Positions 1,978 through 10,545 of a stretch of 32,744 bases of DNA are shown here, in pieces; the stretch's first letter is position 1; the number at the start of each line of letters is the position of its first letter. Made by a program: the position numbers and the translations under genes. The notes beneath the pieces are model-generated. The model ran no database searches. It was not told the DNA's origin and worked only from the letters and a program-made list of their open reading frames with translations. The stretch is from a gamma proteobacterium symbiont of Ctena orbiculata. GTDB taxonomy: Bacteria; Pseudomonadota; Gammaproteobacteria; Chromatiales; Chromatiaceae. Where the stretch lies: NCBI GenBank assembly GCA_003094555.1, contig NATW01000083.1:1-32744 (forward strand), in the 5' to 3' direction.

Positions 1978-3522
1978 ATGGCACAACACCCACTTACCTA
2001 TCTATTGCCTGAAGAGCTCGATTTCGAAGGATTCAAGCGAATACTTTCTGAATCCTATCCATTGTTGGAAGATACCCCGGTTAAGGTAAAGCAGACCTAT
2101 TACGACAGTTTCGACTGGCGCGTCTGGCAGGCGGGGGGAGAGTTGCGCTACGAGCAGGGCGAGCAAAATAAACTGTGTTGGGTGGATAAAAAAAAATCTC
2201 ACTGCCAAGCCATCGAATCAGCCCCGGGGTTCAGCCAGGATATCCCCGCTGGCCCGGTCCGGGAGCGCCTGGTGCCGGTGTTGGAGATGCGTGTCTTGCT
2301 ACCCATGGTGCATATCAATCAGCAGCGACATACCTTGCGTATTCTCGATGCCGATGAGAAGACGGTTGTCAGAGTCATCCTGCAGAAGAATCAATTCAGC
2401 GCGGTCAAGGGCAGGTTAAAGGGTGACCTGGATGGCCGGATTGTGCTGCAGCCGTTAAAGGGCTATGAGAGTGATTTCCTGAAGCTTAAACAACAGTTCG
2501 CATCACTCAAACTCAGACCGTCGGAGCAGAGTCTGTACCATGACGCATTGCTGGGTGTGAAGCGCAAACCGGGCGATTACAGCTCCAAGCTCAATTTCAG
2601 GCTCGATCCGGATGCCCCTGCGCATGAAACGGCCCGCCAGATCATGCTGAATCTGCTGGATACCCTGGAAGCCAACGTGGATGGCACCAGGGCGAATCTG
2701 GACAGCGAGTTTCTCCACGATTTGCGGGTTGCCACCCGGCGTACCCGTTCGGCTATGAGCCAGATAAAAGGGGTGTTCGATGTGCAACAGCTGGCGCCAT
2801 TCAAACAGGCTTTTGGCTGGATTGGACAAATAACCGGGGAGACAAGGGATCTGGATGTCTATCTGTTGCAATATCCCGATTATCAGGCCTCCCTGCCAAA
2901 GATGGTTCAAGATGATCTCGATCCCTTTCACACCTTTCTGCAGCAACACCATAAGCAGGCCCAAGCCGAGCTGGTGAAGAAAATCAACTCACCCCATTTC
3001 AGAAAGTCCCTGAAGGCCTGGCGTAGCTGGTTGCAGGATTCAGGGGTGGAGAGTACGCAGGCCCCAAACGCCATGTCTTCGACAGCAGAGTTGGCCGATA
3101 AGCGCATCGGGAAACTCTACAAGAGGGTACTCAAGGATGGTATCGGCATCGGCCATGATTCACCCGCTGAGCAACTGCACGAACTCCGCAAGGATTGTAA
3201 AAAACTACGCTATTTAATGGAGTTCTTTCAGAGTCTCTACCCCAAGCCGGCAATCCGCGAACTGATCAAATCACTGAAGGTGATACTGGATAATCTTGGA
3301 GAGTTTCAGGACCTGGAAGTACAGGCACATTCGTTGGAGAAGTTTGGTGCGCAGATGTTGCAAGAGGGGGCGCCAGCCAGTGCACTGATGGCCATGGGTA
3401 TACTCGTCGGCCGGCTTTTGGAGAGACAGCAGCAGGCCAGGGATGCCTTTGTTGATCTGTTTGCCGATTTCAGCAGCGAGTCGAAACAAAACGCCTTTCA
3501 TCAGCTGTTTGGAGTGAGATGA
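1978..3522 (+). CDS. CYTH-like/CHAD domain protein (probable polyphosphate-binding)
   Basis: A 514-residue protein. The N-terminal ~190 residues look like a CYTH (triphosphate tunnel) fold: YYDSFDWRVWQAGGELRYE resembles the conserved strand with the Y-x-D motif. However, the ExExK motif expected at the N-terminus is not present, because the protein begins MAQHPLTYLLPEEL. Residues ~200-510 form a CHAD domain, a helical domain with conserved histidines. Its two signatures are HDLRVATRRTR at about residue 247 and HELRKDCKKLRY at about residue 401. CHAD domains are known to bind inorganic polyphosphate and some localise to polyphosphate granules. The stop codon overlaps the start of the downstream ParA gene (ATGA), so translation is probably coupled. 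An enzymatic CYTH activity seems unlikely without ExExK. Polyphosphate binding is inferred from the family. Confidence 0.88.
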   Translation: MAQHPLTYLLPEELDFEGFKRILSESYPLLEDTPVKVKQTYYDSFDWRVWQAGGELRYEQGEQNKLCWVDKKKSHCQAIESAPGFSQDIPAGPVRERLVPVLEMRVLLPMVHINQQRHTLRILDADEKTVVRVILQKNQFSAVKGRLKGDLDGRIVLQPLKGYESDFLKLKQQFASLKLRPSEQSLYHDALLGVKRKPGDYSSKLNFRLDPDAPAHETARQIMLNLLDTLEANVDGTRANLDSEFLHDLRVATRRTRSAMSQIKGVFDVQQLAPFKQAFGWIGQITGETRDLDVYLLQYPDYQASLPKMVQDDLDPFHTFLQQHHKQAQAELVKKINSPHFRKSLKAWRSWLQDSGVESTQAPNAMSSTAELADKRIGKLYKRVLKDGIGIGHDSPAEQLHELRKDCKKLRYLMEFFQSLYPKPAIRELIKSLKVILDNLGEFQDLEVQAHSLEKFGAQMLQEGAPASALMAMGILVGRLLERQQQARDAFVDLFADFSSESKQNAFHQLFGVR

Positions 3523-4262
3523 TGCATATCATCGGCGTCTACAACATCAAGGGCGGGGTTGGTAAGACTGCAACCGCAGTCAATCTCGCCTATCTCGCTG
3601 CAAAACAGGGATATCGCACCTTGATTTGGGACTTGGATCCCCAGGCAGCCGCGACCTTCTATTTTCGTATTCAAGCGAAGGTAAAGGGCAGTAAAAAGCT
3701 TATCAAGGGTAAGTTCGACCTGGATGACGTGGTCAAGGCCACGGATTTCGAGAATCTCGATATGCTGCCTGCCGACTTCTCCTATCGCAATATGGATCTG
3801 CGACTGGAGGATGCGAAGAAACCCACCAAGCAGCTGCTGAAGCTGATGCGCCCCCTTTCAAAGAACTATGACTATGTGTTCCTTGATTGCCCGCCGAGTA
3901 TTTCACTGGTTTCGGAGAATATCTTCCGTGCCGCCGAGGGGCTGCTGTTGCCCTTGATACCCACCACACTTTCGTTGCGCACCTACCAACAGCTTCTCGA
4001 TTTTCTGCAAGGCCACCGCATCACCGGATTGAAGTTAATGCCTTTCTTTTCCATGGCGGATCGACGTAAGCGTATGCATCTGGATATAATGAGGAATTTC
4101 CCGGACGCTCATGGTGAACTGTTGCAGGCACAGATCCCCTATGCCAGCGATGTCGAGAAGATGGGAATCCATCGTATGCCGGTGCAGGCGTTTTCGCCCA
4201 ACTGTTTTGCCGCCAGCGCCTACCAGGCACTATGGATGGATGTACAGAACCGCCTAGGCTAA
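3519..4262 (+). CDS. Orphan ParA/MinD-family positioning ATPase
   Basis: A 247-residue P-loop ATPase of the ParA/MinD type. It starts with IIGVYNIKGGVGKTATAVN, the deviant Walker A box KGGVGKT with its signature lysine. DLDPQAAA (Walker A') and DYVFLDCPPSIS (Walker B region) follow. The start ATG at 3519 overlaps the CHAD gene's stop codon, with GGAG just upstream. No parB gene or parS-like repeat is visible nearby, so a role in chromosome segregation is less likely than positioning of a protein or granule cargo, as in orphan ParAs such as McdA or PpfA. The cargo adaptor could be the CHAD protein (inference). The yadGH exporter genes begin 8 bases downstream and are probably co-transcribed. 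Confidence 0.9.
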   Translation: MMHIIGVYNIKGGVGKTATAVNLAYLAAKQGYRTLIWDLDPQAAATFYFRIQAKVKGSKKLIKGKFDLDDVVKATDFENLDMLPADFSYRNMDLRLEDAKKPTKQLLKLMRPLSKNYDYVFLDCPPSISLVSENIFRAAEGLLLPLIPTTLSLRTYQQLLDFLQGHRITGLKLMPFFSMADRRKRMHLDIMRNFPDAHGELLQAQIPYASDVEKMGIHRMPVQAFSPNCFAASAYQALWMDVQNRLG

Positions 4263-4270
4263 CCTCTGAT

Positions 4271-5209
4271 GTGACTGCCCTCGTAATCAATAATCTCCAC
4301 AAGACCTACCGCAACGGCTTTGAGGCCCTTAAAGGCATCGATCTCAAGGTTGAAGAGGGGGACTTTTTCGCCCTCTTGGGACCGAATGGTGCCGGCAAGT
4401 CCACCGCTATCAGCATCATCGCCTCGCTGATCAATAAGAGCGCTGGTGAGGTCGTGATCTATGGCCACGATCTGGATCTTGAGAAGGATCAGGCGAAGTC
4501 TCTGCTCGGCCTGGTACCCCAGGAGTTCAATTTCAACATGTGGGAACCGGTGGTGGAGATCCTGGTCAATCAGGCAGGTTATTATGGGATCCCGCGAAAG
4601 CTGGCATTCCAACGGGCCGAGGCGGCTTTGCAAAGATTGGGGTTATGGGAAAAACGCAACACCCAGGCTAGATGGCTCTCAGGGGGGATGAAGCGTCGCT
4701 TGATGATTGCCAGGGCCCTGGTGCATCAGCCCAGACTGTTGATTCTTGATGAGCCGACCGCTGGTGTCGATATCGAAATTCGTCGCTCGATGTGGAGTTT
4801 CATGCGCGAGATCAATCAGCAGGGGACGACCATTATTCTGACCACCCACTATCTGGAAGAGGCGGAGAGCCTGTGTCGCAATATTGCCATCATTGATCAT
4901 GGGCGAATCGTCGAACAGACCAGTATGTCGAGATTGTTGAGTCAACTGCATACCGAGGTATTCCTGCTCAACCTGGCATCACCGGTCAGCAGGCTGCCCG
5001 ATCTGCAGGAGTATCGTGCCACATTGATGGATAATGAAATCATTGAAGTGGAAGTTGTGCGTGACCAGAGTATGAATCAGTTGTTCCAGCAACTCTCGCA
5101 ACAGGGCATCGAAGTCGTCAGCATGCGCAACAAACAAAATCGTTTGGAACAGATGTTTGTCGACCTGGTCGACCGATCCAAGCAGCAGCGGGTAGGAAGC
5201 GATGAATAG
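4271..5209 (+). CDS. yadG: ABC transporter ATP-binding protein, YadG type
   Basis: The nucleotide-binding subunit of an ABC-2 type exporter, working at the inner face of the cytoplasmic membrane with the next gene product. Visible motifs are Walker A GPNGAGKST (residues ~37-45), the LSGGMKRRLMIARAL signature, Walker B LLILDEPTAGVD, and the switch histidine in ILTTHYLEEAE. Much of the protein matches my memory of E. coli YadG (312 residues here against about 308). An upstream in-frame ATG at 4232 lies inside parA. I chose GTG at 4271 because it follows the parA stop by 8 bases and gives the family's usual N-terminus. The reading frame overlaps yadH by 8 bases. The substrate is unknown for this subfamily. 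Confidence 0.92.
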   Translation: MTALVINNLHKTYRNGFEALKGIDLKVEEGDFFALLGPNGAGKSTAISIIASLINKSAGEVVIYGHDLDLEKDQAKSLLGLVPQEFNFNMWEPVVEILVNQAGYYGIPRKLAFQRAEAALQRLGLWEKRNTQARWLSGGMKRRLMIARALVHQPRLLILDEPTAGVDIEIRRSMWSFMREINQQGTTIILTTHYLEEAESLCRNIAIIDHGRIVEQTSMSRLLSQLHTEVFLLNLASPVSRLPDLQEYRATLMDNEIIEVEVVRDQSMNQLFQQLSQQGIEVVSMRNKQNRLEQMFVDLVDRSKQQRVGSDE

Positions 5210-5978
5210 CTGGCGGATCTACCGTATCGCATTTCAGACCATCATTACCAAGGAAGTGTTGCGCTTCATGCGCATCTGGGTGCAAACACTGCTGCCGCCG
5301 GCAATAACCACCACCCTCTATTTTGTCATCTTCGGCAAATTGATCGGTGATCGAATCGGTGAGATGGATGGTTATCGCTATATCGATTTTATCGTTCCGG
5401 GTCTTATCCTGATGGCGGTGATCCAGAACTCCTATGCGAATGTGGTGTCATCCTTTTTTGGCACCAAATTGCAGCACTATATTGAGGAGCTGCTGATTGC
5501 CCCTGTCCCCCATTGGGTGGTACTGAGTGGCTATGTGGTCGGTGGTGTCGCCCGTGGTACCATGGTCGGCGTGTTGGTCACTATAATCTCCCTGTTCTTC
5601 ACCGATCTCAGCATCAACAGTTATGCTTTGACCTTGCTGGTGTTTGTACTTACATCCATCCTGTTTGCCTTGGCGGGTTTCATCAATGCGGTGTATGCCA
5701 AAAGCTTCGATGATATATCCATAGTGCCGACCTTTGTGTTGACGCCACTGACCTATCTTGGCGGGGTGTTTTACTCCATACAACTGCTTCCGGAGATATG
5801 GCAAAAGTTGTCCCTGGCGAATCCGGTGCTCTACATGGTCAACACGTTCCGTTTCGGCATCCTGGGTGTCTCCGATATCGATGTGACCCTGGCATTGATG
5901 ATTATTCTGGGATTTATCGTCTTGTTGACAGGATTCAGCCTGGTACTACTCTCCCGTGGTGTCGGTATTAAAGACTGA
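5202..5978 (+). CDS. yadH: ABC-2 type transporter permease, YadH type
   Basis: The membrane subunit partnering YadG, 258 residues, close to the usual length of this family. The N-terminal part (RIAFQTIITKEVLRFMRIW) is cytoplasmic. About six hydrophobic helices follow, with the ABC-2 family stretch LTPLTYLGGVFYSIQLLP near residues 183-200. The start overlaps the end of yadG by 8 bases, typical of a coupled ATPase/permease pair. It is the last gene of the CHAD-parA-yadG-yadH run. Only 30 bases separate its stop from the stop of the convergent rhodanese gene, and I see no clear intrinsic terminator there. Export is expected from the family; the cargo is not deducible. Confidence 0.92.
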   Translation: MNSWRIYRIAFQTIITKEVLRFMRIWVQTLLPPAITTTLYFVIFGKLIGDRIGEMDGYRYIDFIVPGLILMAVIQNSYANVVSSFFGTKLQHYIEELLIAPVPHWVVLSGYVVGGVARGTMVGVLVTIISLFFTDLSINSYALTLLVFVLTSILFALAGFINAVYAKSFDDISIVPTFVLTPLTYLGGVFYSIQLLPEIWQKLSLANPVLYMVNTFRFGILGVSDIDVTLALMIILGFIVLLTGFSLVLLSRGVGIKD

Positions 5979-7628: not shown

Positions 7629-9506
7629 ATGATGAAAGGAAAGGCCTGGGTTGTTATAGCGCTGCTGTGGCTGCCGCTCTGGTGCGGCCAACTGCAGGGT
7701 GCTGAAGATAAGGCGGATGTGCGGATTCTTATCGACGTCTCCGGCAGTATGAAACAGAATGACCCGCAGAACCTGAGGCGGCCTGCACTGCGTCTTCTGG
7801 TTGGTCTTTTATCCTCCGAAACCCGCGCCGGTGTCTGGACCTTCGGTCAATATGTCAATATGCAAATCCCTTTGGGCCAGGTCGACAAGGCGTGGAAAAA
7901 ACGGGCGCGTAAAAGTTCGGAGTCGATCGGCTCACCAGGCCAGTTCACCAATATCGAGGATGTACTGAAGCGCTCAACCGAAGACTGGAGCGATGCGCCT
8001 GGGCCCTTCCGCCGAAGTGTCATCCTGCTCACTGACGGGATGGTGGATATTTCCAGGGACAGGACTAAGAATGCCGCTTCCAAAAAACGTATCCTGACGC
8101 GAATACTGCCCCGCTTAGCGGAGCTTAAAGCGACCGTCCACACCATTGCCCTGTCAAAGAACGCGGACCATGAATTGATGCGGAAGCTGGCCGGCGAGAC
8201 TGGGGGCTGGTATGAGCAGGTTGAAAATGCCGAGCAGTTGCAAAAGGTCTTCCTGAGAATATTCGAGAAGGTGGGGAAACCGGACGCCGTCCCCCTGCAG
8301 GATAATAAGTTTAAGGTGGATGAGACGATTACCGAAGCGACCCTATTGGTGTTTCACAAGCCAGGCGCACAAGAGACTGAAGTGGTACCACCAGATGGCA
8401 AGGTGTTCAAGGCAGATAATGCACCTTCCTCAGTCAGTTGGCATCGGGATCAGGGATACGACATGCTGACCATCTCTGATCCTCAGGCGGGTGAGTGGAA
8501 GATCCGTGCTGAGGTCGATCCCGATAACCGGGTCATGATTGTCACTGATCTGAAGATGCAGACAACCGATCTGCCCAACAGATTGATACAAGGCAGGTCA
8601 CTGCCGGTGATAGTGAAATTCAGTGATCACGGTAAACTGATTCGAAAACGGGAATTTCTTGATGTGGTCAACGTCTCTGCTGTGCAGCAGGATGATGGCG
8701 CCAGTTCTGAAGCCAGGCCCATGTTGGATGATGGTCAGGATCCTGATGAAAATGCTGGTGATGGAATGTTCACCCTCTCGTTTGGCGGTGAGTCTGTCGG
8801 CAGTGGTGTGGGGGAATTGGTCCTTTCTGCTAGCGGTCCAACCTTTGTTCGAGAAAAAAGGATGACCTATGAAATTGTACCACCGGTCAATATCCTGGCC
8901 TCACCTCGTACTGATGGTCACATGCTGGATGTAAAAATTACCCCCGATGCAGAATTGATCGATCCTAAATCCCTGCAAATAGAGGCCTGGTTGGAAAGTG
9001 CCGATGGTGAGCAGTTCCGCCTGCCATTGAATAGCCCGCCAGGTGGTTCGGGTGGTAGTGGTGAAATTGACCTCATGAGCTTCACAGGTCCGCGCCAGAT
9101 AGCGGTAAAGGCCCATGCAACTGCCCTGTCTGGAGAGTCGATCGCCTATTTCGACACACCCATTGAAATCGAAGGGATGAAGGCCCCAGAACCGGTCGCG
9201 GTAAAAAAACCTGAACCTCCTCCGCCACCTGTACAGCCCGAACCAGTGCCAGAACCAGAACCAGAACCAGAACCTGAGCCCGAACCGGAAGCTGAAAAAG
9301 AGGGTGGATGGGGTATTGCATTGATCTGGTTTGGCATCATCAATCTGCTGTTGATAGCCGGCGGTGGTGGGGCTTTCTGGTGGATACGCAGACGTAATCA
9401 ACGCAACATGGTCAGCCTGATCGATGATGGGGATGCGACAACGGCCGGCAATGATGATAAGGATAAATCGAAGGCCAAGGTAGACGCGGGGGATGAGCAT
9501 GATTGA
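7629..9506 (+). CDS. Membrane-anchored VWA-domain protein, periplasmic
   Basis: A 625-residue protein with a Sec signal peptide (MMKGKAWVVIALLWLPLWC..., likely cut near LQGA|E). A von Willebrand factor A domain follows, with an intact metal site: DVSGS at residues 36-40 and a later ILLTDGMVD. Residues ~230-500 are beta-rich, resembling periplasmic immunoglobulin-like modules. A proline/glutamate repeat (PEPEPEPE, ~535-560) works as a spacer. One transmembrane helix (~565-586) ends in a basic stop signal (RRRNQR), leaving a short charged cytoplasmic tail. It resembles uncharacterised marine gammaproteobacterial VWA proteins (the TIGR03503 set, from memory). It overlaps the next gene by 14 bases. 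Function is unknown; adhesion or envelope assembly are possibilities. Confidence 0.85.
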   Translation: MMKGKAWVVIALLWLPLWCGQLQGAEDKADVRILIDVSGSMKQNDPQNLRRPALRLLVGLLSSETRAGVWTFGQYVNMQIPLGQVDKAWKKRARKSSESIGSPGQFTNIEDVLKRSTEDWSDAPGPFRRSVILLTDGMVDISRDRTKNAASKKRILTRILPRLAELKATVHTIALSKNADHELMRKLAGETGGWYEQVENAEQLQKVFLRIFEKVGKPDAVPLQDNKFKVDETITEATLLVFHKPGAQETEVVPPDGKVFKADNAPSSVSWHRDQGYDMLTISDPQAGEWKIRAEVDPDNRVMIVTDLKMQTTDLPNRLIQGRSLPVIVKFSDHGKLIRKREFLDVVNVSAVQQDDGASSEARPMLDDGQDPDENAGDGMFTLSFGGESVGSGVGELVLSASGPTFVREKRMTYEIVPPVNILASPRTDGHMLDVKITPDAELIDPKSLQIEAWLESADGEQFRLPLNSPPGGSGGSGEIDLMSFTGPRQIAVKAHATALSGESIAYFDTPIEIEGMKAPEPVAVKKPEPPPPPVQPEPVPEPEPEPEPEPEPEAEKEGGWGIALIWFGIINLLLIAGGGGAFWWIRRRNQRNMVSLIDDGDATTAGNDDKDKSKAKVDAGDEHD

Positions 9507-10545
9507 AGTCAGCTCCCTGGTAGCGATGATCGTTATTGAGGTGATGATCGGTCTATTGGTTTTGAGTGGCCTGTTAATGGTTTTTACCCTATTACGAAAA
9601 GGCCGGATAAGAAAAGCCGCAGCCCATTTGGCTGAGCGGGTTAAAACCGACAAGGCGAAACGTGAACAGCGCTTGAAAGCACTTTTACAGGATCGTTACC
9701 AGTATAAAGACTCTGAATTGAATCAGACCCTGCATAACATGATGCAGTCAGAGATGTTGCTCTATCAAAATGTCATCAATGGTTTTATGAAGGATGATCA
9801 ATTGCATCTACAGCAGATTGATGTGGATGTGGAAAATCTTGTTCTCGGTTATCAGGGGCTCGATGTGCCTGGGTCGGTAGATAGTTCTCCTCAAGAATCA
9901 GATGATAATGAGGAGATCACCAGTCTAAAAGCCGAAAACGAGCGGTTGTCCGAAGAGCTGCGTGTGACCATGGATACCATGGGTAGAATGTTGAATGAGT
10001 ACTCGACCATGTTTGCTGGTGGTGCCGACGCGAGTCAAGTAGCCGCGTCCCCCACCCCCGAAGGGTCGGGAGAAAGTGGCGAGGTTGATGAGAGTGCAGC
10101 CGAATCCTCTTCCGTAACCGAATCCCCGATGGATGATGTGCCAGTGGATGAAATGGTCTCAGACCTGGTAGGCGATACAGACATACCAGATTTGAGTGTT
10201 GAGGAGAGTGCAGAAGCGGAGGATCAGGTGCCGCAAGCGGCAGATGTTGAGGAAAATGCCAGTTTGGATGAAGATGCGGCTGAGGCGGATGAGGAAGTTT
10301 CAGAGATCATCGACGAGGTAATGGAGATTGCCGACGAGATGATAGAGGAGTCAGAACAGACGGCAAAAGCGGATATACAGAGCGAAACCGGTGAGTCCCT
10401 GGTGGATGATCTGGAGACGATCGACATTGAAATCCCCGACGCGGATGAACCCTTAATGGATGCAGGTGAGGCTGAAGCGGGATCATTGGAGGATGAGTGG
10501 GCAAAGTTGTTGGAAGAGGATGCCGCAAACAAGAAACCGGAATAG
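9493..10545 (+). CDS. Uncharacterised membrane-anchored acidic coiled-coil protein
   Basis: A 350-residue protein I do not recognise. It has one N-terminal transmembrane helix (about residues 8-34) followed by a basic juxtamembrane stretch (RKGRIRKAA). A helical segment and a probable coiled coil follow (EITSLKAENERLSEELRVT, about 138-172). From about residue 185 to the end it is extremely rich in Glu and Asp and likely disordered. It closes with a tryptophan-containing motif, LEDEWAKLLEED. The acidic part would be cytoplasmic if the helix is oriented N-out. It is translationally coupled to the VWA gene by a 14-base overlap, so the two probably act together. A terminator follows 46 bases after the stop. 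Confidence 0.78.
   Translation: MSMIEVSSLVAMIVIEVMIGLLVLSGLLMVFTLLRKGRIRKAAAHLAERVKTDKAKREQRLKALLQDRYQYKDSELNQTLHNMMQSEMLLYQNVINGFMKDDQLHLQQIDVDVENLVLGYQGLDVPGSVDSSPQESDDNEEITSLKAENERLSEELRVTMDTMGRMLNEYSTMFAGGADASQVAASPTPEGSGESGEVDESAAESSSVTESPMDDVPVDEMVSDLVGDTDIPDLSVEESAEAEDQVPQAADVEENASLDEDAAEADEEVSEIIDEVMEIADEMIEESEQTAKADIQSETGESLVDDLETIDIEIPDADEPLMDAGEAEAGSLEDEWAKLLEEDAANKKPE

Follow-up and report, generated by a model that had tools for sequence, protein, structure and literature searches.

The window analyzed here, a stretch of 32,744 nucleotides (contig NATW01000083.1) from a gammaproteobacterial symbiont of Ctena orbiculata, carries a gene for a long CHAD-domain protein that runs directly into the gene for an orphan ParA ATPase. 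The CHAD-ParA gene pair is a real, widely spread functional unit, and we rate it somewhat better than an even bet that its two protein products work together to position polyphosphate granules as their cargo. The contig (C83) is one of 193 in a 4,068,818-base genome; L, G and C numbers denote loci, genomes and contigs. Papers are cited by PMC accession, and statements drawn from them refer to the parts of each that were available.

Conservation of the CHAD-ParA linkage

The CHAD and ParA genes share the letters ATGA, with the ParA ATG at 3519 and the CHAD TGA at 3520-3522. This overlap, the intact KGGVGKT in the ParA translation, and a yadG-like gene 8 bases behind ParA (an ABC ATPase frame that opens with GTG at 4271) had all been described in the initial annotation and are borne out by the reading frames (Table 1).

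The initial annotation had also suggested counting how often CHAD and parA genes adjoin across genomes. In a close set of 113 genomes (the window's own and its relatives), counted among the matches listed and excluding one row (the second fragment of the ParA that is split in G055), a CHAD gene lies directly upstream on the same strand of at least 47 of the 48 ParA orthologs with at least 50% identity, versus none of the 100 ParA-family rows below 40% identity; a single row at 43% is also unlinked. The linkage exceeds chance. The genome of the sole unlinked close ortholog (G022:C82) has another copy of this ParA, and that one is linked; in two of the 47 linked loci (G000:C10 and G006:C18), the CHAD gene is either disrupted or truncated by the end of the contig. 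Among the matches listed, 45 of the 57 long CHAD frames (at least 480 amino acids) adjoin this ParA, as do 2 of the 42 shorter frames, both of these being the disrupted or truncated ones.

Confinement of the adjacency to this genome, which the initial annotation had named as grounds for giving up its proposal, is not observed: the pairing extends well beyond this genome and its kin. An even sampling of the class yielded this ParA, at an E-value of 1e-45 or better, in 56 of 369 genomes. The 55 loci read exclude the window's own and that of G010; in 37 of them, CHAD comes immediately before ParA in the same orientation, as judged by our own CHAD profile. Three further class loci (L130, L136 and L145) have a short CHAD gene upstream by Pfam; because of these, we take the CHAD domain, and not the N-terminal tunnel domain described below, to be the common partner. 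In the named scan, which comprised the best 80 of 405 confirmed ParA loci, CHAD is directly upstream on the same strand in 56, one of them (L218) by a weak match of 75 amino acids. The two frames overlap in 43 of these 56 loci (36 by four bases) and in 26 of the 37 class loci (21 by four bases), with the nearest methionine taken as the ParA start.

By record title, the 56 linked loci belong to Gamma- and Alphaproteobacteria, Actinobacteria, Chlorobi, Desulfobulbus and other Deltaproteobacteria, and also span Planctomycetota, Gemmatimonadetes, KSB1 and Opitutae; many of these records are metagenome-assembled genomes, so single phylum labels may be wrong. Cultured carriers include Sedimenticola selenatireducens BK-1, Thalassobaculum litoreum, Rhodothalassium salexigens, Solirubrobacter pratensis and Prauserella muralis. 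Given this spread over several phyla, the tie to sulfur oxidisers drawn in the initial annotation lacks specificity.

A mirror-tree test of the two proteins gave a Spearman coefficient of 0.63 over 106 pairs, versus a permutation maximum of 0.19. Because nearest neighbours agree in only 35 of the 106 pairs, shared descent explains this correlation as well as co-evolution does.

The same genome bin holds a second CHAD-ParA-ABC copy (L034, G000:C10), in which a minus-strand DDE transposase gene (2972-4405) splits the CHAD gene. Over 2,790 bases, the contig of this copy is 99.9% identical to C18 of another species in the genus, and it may represent contamination of the bin.

The CHAD protein and its predicted polyphosphate binding

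The CHAD half of the window protein matches the Chlorobium tepidum structures 3E0S (E 8e-54) and 6QV7 and 6QVA (both 1e-53), the last of which is a polyphosphate complex. The crystallized portion, CtCHAD, corresponds to residues 207-522 of a longer protein; its binding is lowered by mutating His253, Arg256, Arg260, Arg296 or Arg418/Tyr419, and a smaller loss is described for Arg438/Lys441 and for back-side patch mutants (PMC6537752). We aligned the window protein with 47 of 49 references, chosen for near full-length similarity, and read the residue mapping off the alignments: H247, R250, R254, R290, R411, Y412 and K434 of the window protein are kept in 48, 47, 48, 48, 47, 48 and 47 of the 48 members, respectively. 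Other sites are looser. CtCHAD R438 corresponds to K431, where 32 of the 48 members have K or R, and R385 to G378 in the window protein, and positions K386, K389 and K390 hold K or R in 37, 34 and 43 of the 48 aligned members.

CHAD domains are reported to bind polyphosphate and not nucleic acids (Lorenzo-Orts 2019, PMC6537752). CtCHAD also oligomerises on long polyphosphate (PMC6537752), which by analogy would fit the behavior of a granule coat and which we count in favor of granule positioning. In the Chlorobium-type loci L213, L217, L222, L229 and L231, CHAD adjoins ParA. With the CtCHAD match and the seven kept residues, the window protein has the CHAD domain with polyphosphate-coordinating residues expected of a phosin, and its role as a polyphosphate-binding adaptor, as put forward in the initial annotation, is well supported. 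On this sequence evidence, we predict that it very likely binds polyphosphate.

Ahead of the CHAD domain lies a second domain of about 195 residues, which the initial annotation overlooked. It is beta-rich in the AlphaFold2 model, and Foldseek relates the protein to full-length ygiF over both domains (E 1.4e-11) and to TTM enzymes (E 6.6e-5), indicating a tunnel fold. Pfam leaves the first 200 residues unassigned, none of the 48 long CHAD members matches Pfam CYTH, and only one of the 48, which is not the window protein, has ExExK in its first 40 residues. Because the tunnel fold comes without a CYTH match or ExExK, the N-terminal half is best described as a decayed tunnel domain. The domain is present in most, not all, ParA-linked CHAD proteins, with short CHADs found in L128, L130, L131, L136 and L145; its facing ParA is conjectural.

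An active CYTH enzyme was considered and rejected on the absence of both ExExK and a Pfam CYTH match.

An orphan ParA with the Soj/McdA fold

The genome has nine ParA-family matches and one ParB_N match (C107:13296), which sits directly behind the ParA at C107:12386; no ParB is coded beside the window ParA. Because the sole ParB found adjoins another ParA, the window ParA is an orphan, and the parB partner elsewhere that the initial annotation had named as grounds for abandoning its proposal did not materialize. K11, G12, G13, G15, K16, T17, D38, D40 and D123 are invariant in 49 aligned ParA orthologs, drawn from 87 reference sequences (a further alignment took 41 ParAs); we take these residues to be the deviant Walker A motif with its signature lysine, Walker A' and Walker B. 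The AlphaFold2 model has a mean pLDDT of 89.1, and its top Foldseek matches are Soj and ParA, then McdA, at query TM scores of 0.81-0.88. Walker motifs and a ParA/Soj fold together place the protein in the ParA/MinD family.

A basic, low-confidence loop after Walker A' (3666-3716 in the window) recurs in this ParA lineage. Its mean net charge is 5.2 in 122 CHAD-linked ParAs versus 3.5 in 39 unlinked ones, with L130, L136 and L145 assigned to the linked group by hand. The loop could bind DNA or polyphosphate.

Table 1. Features of the CHAD-ParA region in the window (aa, amino acids).
Feature	Coordinates	Strand	Evidence
CHAD protein of the long type (514 aa), proposed adaptor on the granule	1978..3522	+	PF05235 E 5.3e-59; AlphaFold2 mean pLDDT 95.0
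N-terminal tunnel-fold (CYTH/TTM-like) domain, ~residues 1-195, without ExExK	1978..2562	+	Foldseek ygiF and TTM enzymes
CHAD domain with conserved polyphosphate-coordinating residues	2641..3336	+	PF05235 residues 222-453; CtCHAD match E 1e-53
Orphan ParA ATPase, 247 aa, proposed positioning motor	3519..4262	+	AAA_31 E 7.8e-37; Foldseek Soj/ParA/McdA
YadG-like ABC ATPase, neighbor judged outside the system	4271..5209	+	Directly downstream in 15/30 close loci
YadH-like ABC permease, neighbor judged outside the system	5202..5978	+	NCBIfam PRK15066 404.8 bits

Polyphosphate genes near the pair

Within a radius of 6.5 kb of ParA, 166 loci were read, some species twice and with differing flanks. 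PPK1 was found in 15 of them, PPK2 in 11, PPX in 5, CYTH in 6 and SixA in 25; PPK1, PPK2 or PPX is near ParA in 22 loci, and any of the five families in 39. The chance that a single ppk1 in a 3.5 Mb genome lies within 6.5 kb is about 0.4%, an estimate made without control loci. In L139, for instance, PPK1 is followed by ParA 8 bases on. The ppk1 of the window's genome lies on a different contig. Among the matches listed for the 113 genomes, PPK2 is present in all 43 carriers of this ParA versus 45 of 70 non-carriers, and a CHAD gene of any kind in 43 of 43 versus 26 of 70, comparisons that are confounded by kinship. We count the nearby polyphosphate genes and the PPK2 of all carriers in favor of granule positioning.

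A SixA-like histidine phosphatase gene is often seen near the pair, in L130 (7771-8271) and in 24 other loci. A frame that we take to be QueG-like lies near ParA in L061, L115, L127, L128, L131, L152, L153 and L209.

Where the linkage ends

Several observations weigh against a dedicated granule-positioning pair. A candidate cargo adaptor is coded with ParA in nearly all close orthologs listed and in most of the best named loci, but of the 59 genomes among 398 in an even phylum sample that have this ParA (E 1e-55 or better), only 7 show a CHAD match beside it. In the 52 unlinked phylum carriers, Pfam places no CHAD closer than 8 kb to ParA. We read 20 of these loci, some of them on short contigs, and saw no CHAD, PPK1, PPK2, PPX, CYTH or SixA gene. 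The 24 of the best 80 named loci without CHAD upstream include 3 cut by contig ends, 2 with PPK1 near and 1 with CHAD near, leaving 18 with none, and no CHAD was found in 5 of these 24 genomes, whose completeness is unstated. Among the matches listed in the close set, 12 of the 57 long CHAD frames occur in relatives without this ParA alongside; PPK1 is not enriched in carriers (30 of 43, versus 47 of 70 non-carriers), a comparison subject to the same kinship effect, and a PPK1 match is missing from 13 of the 43 carriers, eight of which are at least 96% complete. Paralogous pairs can be mismatched, as in L063 and L064, whose ParAs are 76% identical and whose CHADs are 31% identical.

PPK1 had been entertained as an obligate partner and was rejected on the carrier and non-carrier counts just given.

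A CHAD protein coded elsewhere may serve some of the unlinked loci. CHAD was matched in 19 of the 24 genomes of named loci without upstream CHAD (contig-end cases included), and in L224 and L226 the match falls within the locus itself. L224, from Acidobacteriota, is an island of ParA, CYTH, PPK1, PPX and CHAD, with CHAD about 5 kb further along. The long CHAD type, aligned over nearly the whole profile, is coded elsewhere in nine Methylococcales genomes (in one of which, that of L173, ParA is cut by a contig end) and in Acidobacteria bacterium Mor1; the L224 genome also carries this long type. In the phylum sample, the window CHAD matches at E 1e-20 in 15 of 398 genomes, including some short CHADs, and 45 of the 52 other carriers have a Pfam CHAD somewhere, mostly short, a count without a non-carrier baseline.

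The limits seen in the phylum sample therefore assign the tight pair to the ParA lineage nearest the window. The initial annotation did not foresee that more distant members of this same lineage mostly lack an adjacent CHAD; these may work with a CHAD coded elsewhere or serve some other cargo. In L137, L138 and L146, more distant ParA relatives adjoin not CHAD but a gene that we presume to encode an AMP-binding, acyl-CoA synthetase-like protein. Four unlinked Methylococcales loci (L174, L176, L187 and L191) share a downstream family, c1 (about 480 amino acids in two of them), which we take to be magnesium transporter-like.

Proposed function and alternative explanations

In the mechanism we propose, the long CHAD protein would bind polyphosphate through its CHAD domain and coat the granule, while the orphan ParA would bind ATP, dimerise and sit on the nucleoid. 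Granule-borne CHAD would then contact ParA, perhaps by the decayed tunnel domain or another exposed face, and this contact would trigger ATP hydrolysis by ParA. Granules would follow the resulting ParA gradient, become spaced and pass to both daughters. The sequences themselves show the conserved pairing, intact ATPase motifs, kept polyphosphate-binding residues and the lack of a ParB next to this ParA; contact, ATPase stimulation, nucleoid binding and positioning are steps that we infer.

The main competing explanation is that ParA acts through CHAD as an ATP-dependent switch on polyphosphate synthesis, granule nucleation or enzyme recruitment, like BcsQ or FleN/FlhG, without moving granules along DNA. 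ATPases of the ParA fold also act as regulators, FlhG, FleN and BcsQ are among the Foldseek matches, and a minority of loci have PPK1, PPK2, PPX or SixA genes close to the pair. We nevertheless consider such a switch rather unlikely: this ParA is nearer in sequence and fold to Soj/ParA/McdA than to BcsQ or FlhG, and PPK1 is not the fixed target because it was not found in 13 of the 43 carriers listed. Alternatively, the cargo could be the chromosome, with polyphosphate-bound CHAD and ParA tying the polyphosphate level to segregation or to nucleoid compaction at starvation. The fold and motifs of the window ParA are indeed those of chromosome partition proteins; however, the same genome has a separate canonical parA-parB pair, and the reported failure of CHAD domains to bind nucleic acids (PMC6537752) also speaks against this explanation, which we hold to be quite improbable.

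Another reading, near the one published for Acidithiobacillus, makes the CHAD protein a polyphosphate-regulated class IV adenylate cyclase or tripolyphosphatase, with ParA incidental. The Acidithiobacillus protein ACAci is reported to have conserved active-site residues, with folD, ppk and parA alongside (PMC6416229), and the modeled N-terminal domain of the window protein has the tunnel fold that such an enzyme would need. Against this, 47 of 48 members lack ExExK within their first 40 residues, none of the 48 has a Pfam CYTH match, and the coupling to ParA is left unexplained; we give this reading very little credence. The last candidate, a single export system made of CHAD, ParA and the ABC exporter, follows the gene order CHAD-ParA-ATPase-permease in the window and its close kin. 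Across 30 close loci, though, the ABC ATPase is directly downstream of ParA in 14 of 20 genus loci (two of which end soon after ParA), in L024 from another genus of the same family, and in none of the nine loci L025-L033, so that a joint export system is close to negligible as an explanation. Granule positioning by the CHAD-ParA pair remains the function we favor.

Neighboring genes

The exporter was rejected as part of the system, being a neighbor in close kin only. The initial annotation had left this coupled exporter unexplained; its adjacency in the window is real, and it is now accounted for as a feature local to close relatives. The permease passes the NCBIfam PRK15066 cut-off of 225 bits, and the ABC ATPase passes no NCBIfam cut-off among the matches listed.

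A defense system was also considered and rejected: PADLOC gave no match for the CHAD protein or the permease, one weak match for ParA (22.9 bits) and generic ATPase matches for the ABC ATPase.

Upstream of CHAD, the window contains the 3' part of pepN (92-1855). A pepN gene is present in 17 of the 166 loci read and is also named in a figure legend on the Acidithiobacillus cluster treated below.

Relation to known systems and significance

McdAB is a ParA-type system that positions carboxysomes. Like it, the window locus codes for an ATPase of the Soj/McdA fold together with a proposed cargo-side protein and has no adjacent ParB. The differences are the partner, a CHAD protein that carries a tunnel domain, and the proposed cargo, which is polyphosphate, not the carboxysome. 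A Pfam scan of the nine frames between 92 and 10542 named no carboxysome protein, the frame at 9493-10542 being unmatched, and no McdB-directed search was made. With ParABS the pair has the ParA component in common, without an adjacent ParB in the window; no parS search was made. The mode of action of McdAB in carboxysome positioning is covered in the available parts of a 2025 review (PMC13052382).

The window protein resembles the CHAD phosins, including CtCHAD, in its related CHAD domain and its seven kept polyphosphate residues; the available parts of the phosin papers do not tie CHAD to ParA or to positioning (PMC6537752, PMC9239181). Similarly, the Acidithiobacillus folD-ppk-parA-CHAD cluster has the same parA and CHAD neighbors and ppk1, with pepN in the figure legend (PMC6416229, PMC10892726). 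There, the CHAD protein, known to us from these papers alone, is read either as a cyclase producing cAMP, within a proposal of cAMP signalling (PMC6416229), or as a copper factor, within one of copper resistance (PMC10892726), and in the parts available ParA is described as a partition protein only. A parA-CHAD-ppk cluster is thus already in print for Acidithiobacillus, without a positioning role.

In Pseudomonas aeruginosa, AlgP acts on the spacing of polyphosphate granules over the nucleoid; it is a DNA-binding, histone-like protein, unlike the CHAD-ParA pair (PMC13052382). In the parts available, that review lists AlgP as the sole granule-spacing protein, gives the ATP dependence of polyphosphate positioning as unknown and describes the Caulobacter proteins as unidentified. 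Our literature search, with preprints and most subscription papers outside its scope, found no proposal of ParA-driven polyphosphate granule positioning, and neither ParA nor CHAD occurs as a whole word in PMC11326607 or PMC12510024.

How bacterial polyphosphate granules are spaced and shared out is considered an open question (PMC13052382). One half of the module described here is a polyphosphate-binding protein whose structure is known, and the other is an ATPase of a familiar kind, so that the question can be tested directly in cultured carriers such as Sedimenticola selenatireducens, Thalassobaculum litoreum or Rhodothalassium salexigens. That it reflects an old, widely spread, ATP-driven mode of granule positioning in several phyla, with CHAD proteins as the adaptors of a dedicated ParA lineage, has in our judgment slightly less than an even chance. 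If this is true, polyphosphate, like the carboxysome, would have its own ParA.

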